A DNA stretch of 24,732 nt, taken from NCBI GenBank assembly GCA_945787595.1, contig CALZJV010000153.1, positions 1 through 24,732 of the forward strand, read 5' to 3'. The DNA comes from an uncultured Desulfobacterales bacterium. Lineage in GTDB: Bacteria; Desulfobacterota; Desulfobacteria; Desulfobacterales; JAFDCJ01. A model generated the notes under the pieces. The model searched no databases. It was not told the DNA's origin and saw only the letters and a program-made list of their open reading frames with translations. Positions 1 to 19,195 of the stretch are shown here, piece after piece. Each line of letters starts with the position of its first letter. The stretch's first letter is position 1. The position numbers and the translations under genes are program-made.

Positions 1-789
1 AACCATTGAGATCGGATGCACCGGTGCTTGTGCCGAGCACCAGTGGATTGTGTGCGTCCATCAGCCGGATGATCAATTTTTCATACGATGCCAGCGGAAT
101 CCCAGATCGTTCCAGGACCATGCCTTGAATATACGGGGCAGTGGCTTTGTTTAAAAGCTCTAGAAATGGTTTTGGAAGATCTTTGCCTTTGCCGATATCC
201 AACGCTTGTCTGATCAAGCCTAAAGCGATAACAGCTTCACTGCCGGGGTTACAACCTAACCAATGATCGGCATTCGCACCGGTCAAAGATTGATACGGGC
301 TAATCTGGAAGAATAGATTTTTTTTCCCGTCCTTAAGTGCATGCATGGCTTTAAATTTCCATGCATATTCGACGGGTGACAGCCAGGTTTCAAGAAAATC
401 AGCGCCGAAGGACACTAGTATATCGGCCTTTTCCATGCGATAAGACACCAACCCGTCAACGTCGAATACCTTTTGATTGGCTGTTTTTAATGATTCATAG
501 GCGTATGGTTCAAATACCAAGGGCGGCTGGGCGTTTAAGTTTGTCAAAGCAGCTGTGAGCAGAGCGGGTTGCCCTCAATTTTGATGACACGACCTTCCCT
601 GTTTTTGACAAGGATACCGCAGCCTGCCGGGCATTCGCGGCAGGTGGATGCATACCAGGTGGCCTCACCGACGACCATATCGTCAGGGGCTTGAACAAGA
701 GAAAAAAGATTCTTTTGAGGAGGATTGCAGCCAAATGCAAAAGAGATGCTGCCCATACCGGCAATTTTAAGAAAGGTGCGCCGATTCAT
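1..789 (-). pseudogene. qrcB: QrcB-like molybdopterin oxidoreductase, internally deleted and frameshifted, runs off the left edge
   Basis: Intact QrcB is the large molybdopterin-family subunit of the membrane menaquinone reductase (Qrc) that passes periplasmic electrons to the quinone pool in sulfate reducers. I start it at the ATG ending at 789, which has GGGAGA about 9 bases upstream and opens with a Tat-like NRRTFLKIAG and then a lipobox-like FAFGC. A Fe-S type stretch STCRECPAGCG follows, then the reading VIKIEGNPL. At about 560 this frame changes to CSQLL and stops at UGA (544-546). A different frame resumes the same family from about 559 with LVFEPYAYESLK, VSFGADFLETWLSPVEYAWK and HWLGCNPGSEAVIALGL, and stays open to base 1. 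From memory of the family, roughly 90-100 residues, including the fourth Fe-S cysteine, are missing at the junction, and the join is out of frame. No qrcA cytochrome gene precedes it. It is either a real pseudogene or an assembly join. Family call fairly sure; the Qrc assignment over other molybdopterin enzymes is less so. Confidence 0.8.
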
Positions 790-901
790 ATTTAAAAAGA
801 TCTCCCGAAATATTTCAGATGGGATGGATTGGAAAATTCCGTGCTGATGGTGTTCACCTTTGCCATAAACCAACTACTCAAACGATCTGAACCCCTCCGT
901 T

Positions 902-11250: not shown

Positions 11251-11317
11251 ATTAAGCGTCTAATACTCAATTATCAACGCTCTCAGACACAATTCCACTG
11301 GGATGAAAGGAGAAATT

Positions 11318-11791
11318 ATGAGCGATGACGTTGCTTACACATCAAAAGTTAGAATCGAACGCATAAAAGGACCGTTGCGGCGGGCATATTTGCCGCAGGT
11401 GGAATCGCCGGTTTTGTTCGGCGTGCATTCCGAGGTTGCTGAACATTACGGAGTTGATCCGGATGTACATTCCCCCCAGGCAACCACCCTGGACTACGTG
11501 GTGGCTTCGGCAGCCGGCTGACTGACCGGCACGTTTGGCGGCGCGCTGGAAGCGCGCAAGATTCCTGCCGGGGAAGGTGTTCTAACCTCAGAGGCAAAAG
11601 GGGAGATTGAAAAAGACGGAAACGTCTTGGTAATCAAAAGAATCCACGTGACGTATCACCTGAAATTAAAATCGGATCAGCGAGAAACTGCGGGAAAAGT
11701 ACATGGTTTTCACGCTGATTTTTGCCCGGTGGCACGCTCCGTCAAAGGGTGTATAGACATTACCACGGAGCTGCAAATGGAAGATATATAA
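11318..11791 (+). CDS. OsmC-like selenoprotein (in-frame UGA read as selenocysteine)
   Basis: A 157-residue OsmC/Ohr-superfamily protein, a group of thiol-dependent peroxide-reducing proteins. The frame starts at ATG 11318, with AAAGGAGA 5 bases upstream, and runs through ATTLDYVVASAAG to a UGA at 11519-11521 (codon 68). The same frame then continues without another stop for 90 codons: LTGTFGGALEARKIPAGEG, then HADFCPVARSVKGC with the second conserved cysteine C136, ending at UAA 11789-11791. In OsmC-like relatives the UGA position is, from memory, the catalytic cysteine (AAGCLTGTF), and OsmC-like proteins are an established bacterial selenoprotein family. A perfect SECIS-like hairpin lies 19 bases after the UGA. 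Both the stop position and the intact downstream frame argue against a simple nonsense mutation. A standard gene caller would truncate it at 67 residues. No selA/B/C/D genes are in the window. Confidence 0.87.
11541..11557 (+). promoter_or_regulatory. SECIS-like hairpin downstream of the UGA
   Basis: GCGCGCT (11541-11547), loop GGA (11548-11550), AGCGCGC (11551-11557): seven perfect pairs. The loop starts 26 bases after the UGA and has G in its first two positions, both within the known limits for bacterial SELB-binding SECIS elements. It is inside the coding frame, as bacterial SECIS elements are. Confidence 0.75.
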
Positions 11792-14104: not shown

Positions 14105-14965
14105 CTATAAGCCCTCGAAGAGATCTGTTTCTTTGGTATCGGTTGAAGTACATCCATGAACACACTCGAAATGTTCGTATCCCATGACCTCCTCTCTAAA
14201 TTTCTCGGACATTCGCCTTAAAATACTATTTGGATTCATTTGGCTCTGGTGGCAATTGAGAGCCTCCAGCTTCTGAGAGAGATATTCCCTGACATCAACA
14301 ACGGTTGATATTTTTTCTTCCGGCGTTCCTATCACATCGGGATCGAAGCCGGGTTCTTCGCCCCGTTCCTTAACCATTCTATGCATCTTGCGCATCCTTT
14401 TCAGAGGAATGGCCGTGTAGTACAGCTTGGCCGGTCGCCAGGGCTCGAGTACTTCTCCAATCTCGAATCGGGCGTCTCCGGATGCTTGAAGGGCACGCAA
14501 GGTCACTCTGTTTGCCATGATATGGTCGGGGTGAAGATATGTTCCCTTCTCATTGTAAGTTACTATCACATGTGGGCGAACACGCCTTATTATTTTCACC
14601 AGTTTGGCTGTGGCTTCCTGGATATCCGCCTGGGCAAAGGTCTGTGGATGATTATTCTCCTGACTACCGGCCATGCCGGAATCACGATAACCTAAAAAAT
14701 ATACAGATCCAATCGCCAGTACCTTGAGGGCTGCTTTCAACTCAATTGCCCGGATCTCTTTTATTTTCAATCCGGGTTTGGGAGCGACAAACTCCGGATT
14801 CAGAATGTCACCCGCCTCGCCCCCGGTACCATATGCCAGGACCGTCCTGCAGCCCATTGCAGAATATTTTGCAAGTATGCCACCGGTACTGATGGACTCA
14901 TCATCCGGATGGGCATGGACGGCCAGTAAGGTTAATTCATTATTTCTAACAGTGGGCAGATTCAT
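14105..14965 (-). CDS. LmbE/PIG-L family deacetylase, copy 1
   Basis: A 286-residue zinc-dependent N-deacetylase/amidase of the LmbE (PIG-L) family. The family signature AHPDDE is at 18-23 (H19, D21, D22) and the later zinc histidine is in YLHPDHIMANRV (H145/H148). Length and the segments RGEEPGFDPDVIGTPEEKIS and LSQKLEALNCHQSQMNPNS resemble the MshB/Mca branch, which acts on GlcNAc-inositol thiols or their conjugates, but a thiol substrate in this organism is only a guess. A second gene of identical length lies at 18232-19092; by hand count about 39 of 286 residues differ. I start both at MNLP because it is common to both; the ribosome site (AAGGAAAG) is distant. It converges on the structured element at 13811-14098. 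Confidence 0.93.
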   Translation of the reverse strand: MNLPTVRNNELTLLAVHAHPDDESISTGGILAKYSAMGCRTVLAYGTGGEAGDILNPEFVAPKPGLKIKEIRAIELKAALKVLAIGSVYFLGYRDSGMAGSQENNHPQTFAQADIQEATAKLVKIIRRVRPHVIVTYNEKGTYLHPDHIMANRVTLRALQASGDARFEIGEVLEPWRPAKLYYTAIPLKRMRKMHRMVKERGEEPGFDPDVIGTPEEKISTVVDVREYLSQKLEALNCHQSQMNPNSILRRMSEKFREEVMGYEHFECVHGCTSTDTKETDLFEGL

Positions 14966-15481: not shown

Positions 15482-15871
15482 TTACCAAATAGTTTTGACT
15501 TTAGGTAGATTTTGAAGGACTGTGTCTTTTGTGATGATTGGGACTTTGAGATATTTTGCGGTTGAGACAATGATTTTGTCATGAAGCTCAGGGATTTCTG
15601 TTAAGGCCACCATTTTTTCGAGAATGGGATAATCAAGTGCAATGAGCACAAAATTTTCACTGTCGTTTATTTTTTTGAATAAATTTTTAAAGTTGAAGGA
15701 GATACGTTTTTTGTCAAAGATGCTGAGTGCTTCTGCAATTACAATTGAGGGAATGAAAATGATATTTTCTCCTGCTTCACATTTTTCAAAGATCCCCGAA
15801 GCTTTTGGACTGATTTTCGGACTGTCTGTAAACCACCAAAGTAGGGCATGTGTATCTGCAACAAAGTTCAT
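15482..15871 (-). CDS. PIN-domain toxin, VapC-like ribonuclease
   Basis: A 129-residue PIN-domain protein, the usual size of a VapC-type RNA-cleaving toxin. The four acidic active-site positions are visible: D6 (FVADTHALLWW), E47 (IPSIVIAEALSI), D98 (IPELHDKIIVSTAKYL) and D116 (PIITKD). The start at 15871 is set by the PIN opening MNFVADTHALLWW and by the antitoxin stop 7 bases upstream; an extension to 15946 would overlap the antitoxin gene in another frame. DTHALLWW places it with the type II VapC branch that often pairs with short helical antitoxins. Translationally linked to the antitoxin before it. Confidence 0.9.
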   Translation of the reverse strand: MNFVADTHALLWWFTDSPKISPKASGIFEKCEAGENIIFIPSIVIAEALSIFDKKRISFNFKNLFKKINDSENFVLIALDYPILEKMVALTEIPELHDKIIVSTAKYLKVPIITKDTVLQNLPKVKTIW

Positions 15872-15878
15872 AAGTATC

Positions 15879-16094
15879 CTACATTTTTGTGCTGCTATAA
15901 AGAGATTTTTTTGCAGAGGCGATTTCTTGCTCGGTAATATCAACACCCTTAAGGATACCCTTGAGCGATATAACCTTTTTACCAGAGGGAGAGAGATCCT
16001 TTAGAATAGATAGCTTTAAATCCATAACCTCTTTTTCAATGTTTTCGATCTTATGGAGGATGTCAGCAGTTGTTATGGATGGTACATGTTTCAT
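15879..16094 (-). CDS. antitoxin partner of the PIN toxin
   Basis: A 71-residue protein directly upstream of the PIN toxin and ending 7 bases before it, the standard antitoxin-first order. The N-terminal half is a predicted helix/coil (ADILHKIENIEKEVMDLKLSIL). The C-terminal segment VISLKGILKGVDITEQEIASAKKSLYSS is the type of tail seen in antitoxins of VapC-like toxins, which occupies the toxin active site. The start at 16094 has AAAGGAGA about 8 bases upstream and is preferred to an earlier in-frame start at 16139. It probably represses its own promoter as part of the toxin complex. Confidence 0.8.
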   Translation of the reverse strand: MKHVPSITTADILHKIENIEKEVMDLKLSILKDLSPSGKKVISLKGILKGVDITEQEIASAKKSLYSSTKM

Positions 16095-16160
16095 TTTAAA
16101 TGTCTCCTTTTCTATCTGCTTTTTTTGAAAAGATACCATAAGCCGGATTTATTGTCAAAA

Positions 16161-18231: not shown

Positions 18232-19092
18232 CTATAAGCCTTCGAATAGCTCTGTTTCCTTGGTATCGGCCGCAGGGCATCCCTGAACGCACTGGAAGTG
18301 TTCGTATCCCATGGCCTCCACCCTCATTTCCTCAGACATACGCCTGATAATACTATTTGGATTCATTTGACTCTGGTGGCAATTGAGAGCCTCGAGCTTC
18401 TGAGAAAGGTATTCCCTGACATCGATAACGGTTGAGATTTTGTCCTCCGGAGTGCCGATCACATCGGGATCGAAACCTGGTTCTTCGCCGCGTTCTGTAA
18501 CGATTCTATGCATCCTGCGGATCCTTTCCAGAGGAATGGCCGTGTAGTAAAGCTTGGCCGGTTGCCAGGGCTCGAGTGCTTCTCCAATCTCGAATCGGGC
18601 GTCTGCGGATGCTTGAAATGCACGCAAGGTCACCCTGTTTGCCATGATATGGTCGGGGTGAAGATATGTTCCCTTCTCATTGTAGGTCACCATCACATGT
18701 GGGCGAACACGCCTTATTATTTTCACCAGTTTGGCTGTGGCTTCCTGGATGTCCGCCTGGGCAAAGGCCTGTGGATGATGATTCTCAGGACTACCGGCCA
18801 TGCCGGAATCACGGTAACCCAAAAAATATACGCTTCCCACTGCCAGTACCTTGACGGCCGCTTCCAACTCAGTTGACCTGATCTCTTTTATGTTCAATCC
18901 GGGTTTGGGAGCAACGAATTCCGGATTCAGAATGTCACCTGCCTCTCCCCTGGTACCATATGCAAGGACCGTCCTGAGGCCCTTTGCGGAATATTTTGCG
19001 AGTATGCCACCGGTACTGATGGACTCATCATCCGGATGGGCATGTACGGCCAGTAAGGTTAATTCATCATTTCTAAGATGGGGCAGATTCAT
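18232..19092 (-). CDS. LmbE/PIG-L family deacetylase, copy 2
   Basis: A second 286-residue LmbE-type zinc deacetylase, the same length as the gene at 14105-14965 and about 86 percent identical to it by hand count. AHPDDE (18-23) and YLHPDHIMANRV are intact, so both copies look active. Differences concentrate at the C-terminus (CVQGCPAADTKETELFEGL against CVHGCTSTDTKETDLFEGL) and in a few surface positions; the zinc-site surroundings are unchanged. A TTG eleven codons upstream (19125) is in frame, but copy 1 has TTA there, so MNLP at 19092 is the common start. The upstream ~100 bases match those of copy 1. Direct tandem orientation with ~3 kb of unrelated genes between them points to duplication followed by insertion, or to insertion by recombination between copies. 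Confidence 0.93.
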   Translation of the reverse strand: MNLPHLRNDELTLLAVHAHPDDESISTGGILAKYSAKGLRTVLAYGTRGEAGDILNPEFVAPKPGLNIKEIRSTELEAAVKVLAVGSVYFLGYRDSGMAGSPENHHPQAFAQADIQEATAKLVKIIRRVRPHVMVTYNEKGTYLHPDHIMANRVTLRAFQASADARFEIGEALEPWQPAKLYYTAIPLERIRRMHRIVTERGEEPGFDPDVIGTPEDKISTVIDVREYLSQKLEALNCHQSQMNPNSIIRRMSEEMRVEAMGYEHFQCVQGCPAADTKETELFEGL

Positions 19093-19195
19093 TTTTGAAA
19101 ATTTCCTGCTTTCTTTCCTTGCCAATGTATCGTAAATATTAATACATAGATTGAATAATACAACTCAGCCGGATGGAAAATATCGGTTCGATATT

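Follow-up and report, generated by a model that had tools for sequence, protein, structure and literature searches.

The 24,732-nucleotide stretch of DNA analysed here (the window; contig CALZJV010000153.1 from an uncultured Desulfobacterales bacterium) contains an OsmC-like gene at 11318..11791 on the forward strand, in which an in-frame UGA is very probably decoded as selenocysteine (Sec). The gene runs from an ATG at 11318-11320 to a TAA at 11789-11791, giving 157 codons plus the stop, and its sole interruption is the TGA of codon 68 (11519..11521), which occupies the OsmC/Ohr attacking-cysteine position and falls at the same codon in relatives. AAAGGAG at 11306..11312, 5 nt upstream of the ATG, is a likely ribosome-binding site. 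Downstream of the UGA on the same strand lie a hairpin resembling a selenocysteine insertion sequence (SECIS) at 11541..11557 and, at 11723..11725, the codon for Cys136, a probable resolving cysteine within a CPVARS motif seen in alignments. A sequence-only reading had proposed that the frame continues past the UGA to the family's C-terminal motif and that automated annotation would truncate the product. Indeed, 89 sense codons follow before the TAA, HADFCPVARS is present in the read-through protein, and the open reading frame called with genetic code table 11, which begins at an earlier ATG (11303), ends at the UGA after only 72 amino acids. A match to the Pfam OsmC profile (PF02566) covers residues 58-151 of the read-through protein, spanning the UGA, with a score of 46.6 bits (cut-off 27.5).

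The UGA is strongly conserved. One scan of a genome collection recovered relatives from 22 named records, 58-91% identical to the window protein, and all 22 have UGA at codon 68. The search query carried Cys in place of Sec, so the searches gave UGA no advantage, and the protein database disfavours it. Residue-level placement across 130 loci gave 129 TGA and one TGG, with four places represented twice (L004/L053, L006/L023, L016/L083 and L022/L120). Six phylum samples, with phylum names taken from record titles and each including a centre genome picked for having the gene, were searched at a cut-off of E 1e-15. Relatives occur in 180 of their 1641 genomes, and the 226 matches comprise 218 with one in-frame TGA, six with Cys, one with Trp and one that ends short of the site, TGA in unfetched matches being counted inside the match rather than placed per residue. 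One TGA is present in 36/36 matches of the G006 sample (Desulfosarcina; 36/395 genomes) and TGA in 28/28 of the G016 sample (Acidobacteriota; 26/347 genomes). The G004 sample, titled Chloroflexi, has TGA in 34 of 35 matches (33/350 genomes), the remaining one being TGG (L074), and the G022 sample (Gemmatimonadales) in 104 of 105 (65/200 genomes), the remaining one ending before the site. The six Cys matches all come from the G021 sample, titled Acidimicrobiaceae, where 15 of 21 matches have TGA and six have Cys (19/149 genomes). The sequence-only reading had turned on whether homologues carry Cys or Sec in this column. In the genomes the aligned column is UGA, rarely Cys, with one TGG locus; a separate database search found 890 proteins, and among the 120 listed, from which column residues were taken, only six have Leu, Gly, Ala or Arg.

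Two of these samples produced side observations. In the G014 sample, titled Rhizobiales, the only positive among 200 genomes is the 3290-bp contig L014 of a Rhizobiales metagenome-assembled genome. This locus is 91% identical to the window protein and shares the window's upstream LysM gene; neither SelB nor tRNA-Sec exceeds the cut-off in its genome, and L014 is probably a mis-binned contig. In the G022 sample, 39 of the 65 gene-bearing genomes match more than once (two or three times). The second matches are mostly 30-42% identical and have one TGA; they are likely UGA-bearing paralogues, although some are pieces of one gene.

The hairpin has a perfect 7-bp stem (11541-11547 paired with 11551-11557) and a GGA loop (11548-11550), with 26 nt from UGA to loop, exactly as the sequence-only reading described it. 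The SECIS spacing rule is 16-37 nt, and the bacterial pattern of a hairpin soon after UGA with a G opening a small loop is present. Compared with dinucleotide shuffles, the fold of the single 61-nt stretch is ordinary (z -0.32), and 78 of 200 shuffles are equally good. That the hairpin is under selection is shown instead by its relatives and by a synonymous-codon shuffle within each of 126 genes (duplicate loci included). For the 36-nt segment covering codons +4 to +15 beyond the UGA, the mean z is -1.2 and 37/126 genes fall below -1.5, the gene studied here reaching -3.5; the remaining 26 offsets have mean z from -0.45 to +0.38, so excess folding is confined to the region just after the UGA. 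Outside an MMGT/MTGT group there are 92 distinct sequences, and in these the 7-bp stem pairs in 97.5% of cells, a figure that drops to 19-69% when the partner is slid by 1-3 columns. These sequences contain 16 both-sided, compensatory changes in the stem (pair 27-35 occurs as GC, AT and CG, pair 26-36 as CG and TA), and in 92/92 the loop opens with G. The 33 MMGT/MTGT sequences, a group defined by motif alone, a few of whose members may carry the first hairpin, have a different hairpin closer to the UGA, paired in 87.1% of cells (13-55% when slid).

Host genomes of these genes commonly encode the selenium machinery. Among the 22 host genomes of the named relatives, SelB is above cut-off in 20 and tRNA-Sec in 19. 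Within the G022 sample, 63/65 gene-bearing genomes have SelB, compared with 86/135 gene-free ones (Fisher p 3e-8). In the G021 sample, SelB is present in all 14 further Sec-form genomes and in 10 of 12 gene-negative genomes selected from the listing, but is missing from the four Cys-form genomes that were checked (0/4), where Cys replaces Sec. Because Sec and Cys forms sort with the presence and absence of SelB, the question of why enzymes keep selenium becomes testable on paired enzymes.

The read-through protein has a predicted OsmC fold. Sec68 maps to the central helix, where OsmC and Ohr have their attacking cysteine, and Cys136 to the resolving place, so both redox positions are occupied, the first by Sec instead of Cys. 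The sequence-only reading's claim that the catalytic Cys of relatives falls at the UGA is supported, and Cys forms do occur in that column. The Cys136 column is Cys in 119/121 rows (the query and the 120 listed database proteins). Compared singly with the PDB, the protein had a weak match to OhrB, with the alignment shifted at the active site; a profile search aligned the site. In the proposed mechanism, SelB with Sec-tRNA would bind the hairpin at 11541-11557 and UGA codon 68 would be decoded as Sec, yielding a 157-residue OsmC-fold protein. An organic or lipid hydroperoxide would then oxidise selenolate 68, which would form a selenenylsulfide with Cys136 and be re-reduced by a dithiol. By homology to OsmC and Ohr enzymes, we infer the Sec68/Cys136 redox pair, the peroxidase chemistry, the substrate and the reductant. 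Taken as a whole, we consider it likely that this is a working selenoprotein gene of a U(L/M)xGT subfamily, decoded through SelB and the hairpin and probably serving a peroxide cycle via Sec68 and Cys136. Conservation of the UGA, the selected hairpin, the co-occurrence with SelB and the predicted fold make up its observed support, and the other parts are putative.

Several observations weigh against this reading. The selenium-machinery evidence covers SelB and tRNA-Sec in relatives' genomes, and Sec insertion in the source organism itself is inferred. Among the 22 host genomes, SelB is below cut-off in G002 and G014 and tRNA-Sec in G003, G014 and G018, and no tRNA-Sec turned up around selB in G003 or G018 on a follow-up search; this absence is weak evidence because 120 of several hundred tRNA-Sec candidates were scored per genome. 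Two of the 65 gene-bearing genomes in the G022 sample (G1233 and G1271) are without SelB. L074 has TGG at the Sec codon, and its genome (G719) has SelB; the TGG may reflect decay or sequence error. The hairpin stem is partly fixed by the protein motif GALEAR, so the case for selection rests on the both-sided changes and the synonymous-codon shuffles. Finally, the position of the catalytic Glu of Ohr is not conserved. In XfOhr, with Glu51 and Cys61, a Glu lies ten residues before the attacking Cys (PMC5962072), whereas the corresponding residue 58 here is Leu, Ile or Val in 49/49 alignment rows.

The loss of this Glu bears on the alternative that survives best, namely a true selenoprotein that is not a peroxidase, with Sec68 serving a different redox or transfer reaction whose substrates might be, for instance, disulfides, persulfides or electrophiles. 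Residues specific to the subfamily are consistent with such a role (in 49 rows, His37 in 47, Tyr44 in 49, Thr72 in 49 and Asp59 in 48). Peroxide work may also be covered by stop-free OsmC-family genes, which are found in the host genomes as well, and no neighbour conserved beyond close relatives hints at a pathway. However, the fold and both redox positions are those of OsmC/Ohr, and Arg21, present in 43/49 rows, could be the catalytic Arg of the Ohr/OsmC type. This alternative appears unlikely, though it deserves to be taken seriously, and a peroxide-handling selenoprotein is preferred.

That the UGA is read as tryptophan under a different code, or is read through without targeting, is an alternative that draws on the database proteins. 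Among the 120 listed, the Sec column has 95 Trp, 17 Cys, 2 Leu, 2 Gly, 1 Ala, 1 Arg and 2 gaps, and L074 has TGG. The Trp entries (within P0002-P0121) nevertheless come mostly from contigs of at most a few kb, on which gene callers may choose code 4, and they probably represent gene callers reading UGA as Trp. TGA terminates 3 of the 16 genes delimited in the window, so UGA is also an ordinary stop here, and TGG is a common codon there, with 58 occurrences. In the genomes, moreover, the alternative residue is Cys, in those lacking SelB, and the downstream hairpin is selected. This alternative is accordingly very improbable. The 95 active-site Trp residues instead expose an annotation fault, as does NCBI entry P0119 (89 aa), which starts at the Met right after the UGA position. 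A nonsense-mutated or mis-sequenced pseudogene can be dismissed as still less probable, since the UGA is the only interruption where scattered lesions would be needed, it recurs at the same codon in 22/22 named relatives and in most of the 226 sampled matches, the frames after it are intact and the hairpin is selected.

The selenoprotein read from this gene apparently belongs to a separate, nearly Sec-only and uncatalogued OsmC subfamily. The accessible text of PMC1088965, PMC2398784 and PMC13188914 lists one OsmC-like selenoprotein (PF02566), with motif UxxT, and that of PMC13188914 counts proteins of the same architecture with different Sec motifs as distinct subfamilies. The window motif is ULTGT, and Gly at +3 and Thr at +4 are found in 131/131 residue-level rows, so UxxT does not fit. 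The sequence-only reading had assigned the gene to an established OsmC-like selenoprotein family; such a family is catalogued, but it is this different, UxxT subfamily. NF041052 (OsmC_like_Se, OsmC-related (seleno)protein), which presumably represents the published UxxT family, does not match the window protein at E 0.01. At the same threshold it matches 27 of 49 alignment members (best 1.3e-6), and the highest single-sequence score among U(L/M)xGT-type members is 27.1 bits, where the cut-off is 95. The literature searched, with most subscription papers outside its scope, contained no other report of the U(L/M)xGT subfamily beyond the UxxT entry.

Two further OsmC selenoprotein candidates were observed. 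L161:523-1134 (-), in G001, has the motif ATUMTTT, which fits UxxT, and a stable hairpin after the UGA; it scores 54.3 bits against NF041052, below the profile's cut-off, and pairwise comparison with the window protein gave no significant similarity. Its occurrence together with a U(L/M)xGT relative in G001 puts two OsmC selenoprotein subfamilies in one genome. A third OsmC-type candidate, known from one sequence only, is L163:418-861 (-) in an Olavius symbiont genome (G007), with ALUASMD and a hairpin after the UGA. It shares 33% identity with the Cys protein of L160, its UGA lying opposite Cys.

Phylogeny bears on how the Sec and Cys forms arose. In a quick tree of 122 rows, the 17 Cys forms are scattered among Sec forms, with five Sec/Cys changes; in a second of 109 rows with 23 Cys forms, the best tree has eight changes, at least three forced by well-supported branches, although a single Cys clade is not rejected in this tree (p-AU 0.105, approximately unbiased test). 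Both trees have many weak branches and an unsure root. The placement of Cys forms among Sec forms suggests Sec-to-Cys replacement, which PMC13188914 describes as rare. Very long outgroup branches in the 122-row tree leave Sec as the ancestral state suggestive only. A broader proposal is that Sec is original and normal in a separate, widespread OsmC subfamily with an active site unlike the Ohr triad, Cys being secondary in lineages without SelB. This is tentative, and we would place it a little short of an even call. If true, the direction would be the reverse of the usual Cys-to-Sec. The subfamily itself, which is large, nearly Sec-only and, going by record titles, present in no fewer than six phyla, would join the prokaryotic selenoproteome. 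The cluster rule given in PMC1088965 requires at least two Cys homologues and more than 50% TGA/Cys pairs, and a rule of this type would probably miss a nearly Sec-only family. Under the broader proposal, the subfamily's absence from catalogues would be explained by the need of UGA/Cys-pair searches for abundant Cys homologues and by gene callers that truncate the protein or write Trp.

No operon partner recurs beyond close relatives across the window and 22 loci, some with short flanks. An upstream LysM-protein gene is common to the window, L002, L006 and L014, and other neighbour clusters join three to four loci each. Elsewhere in the window, a molybdopterin-oxidoreductase-like gene at 1-873 (-), named by eye from its start, shifts frame near 540-560; its 109-aa open reading frame stops early and homologous-looking sequence continues in another frame, reflecting a lesion or a sequence error. 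Two very similar PIG-L family deacetylase genes occupy 14105-14965 and 18232-19125 (-), and between them lie a putative ATPase-like open reading frame and, by eye, a putative PIN-type toxin/antitoxin pair (15482-16139).

Among known systems, the window protein shares its fold and both redox positions with OsmC and Ohr peroxidases (1ukk, 1nye, 2onf and 4xx2). Like the catalogued UxxT OsmC-like selenoprotein, it combines an OsmC domain, Sec at the attacking-cysteine place and a SECIS-like hairpin after the UGA; unlike that protein, it has no match to NF041052 and belongs to a subfamily that carries the motif U(L/M)xGT and is nearly Sec-only. Prx, GPX-like and AhpD-like Sec oxidoreductases have folds unrelated to the OsmC fold. 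The likeness to these enzymes, as they appear in Table 1 of PMC13188914, lies in a selenol at the catalytic-thiol place and a UGA decoded with a hairpin right after it.
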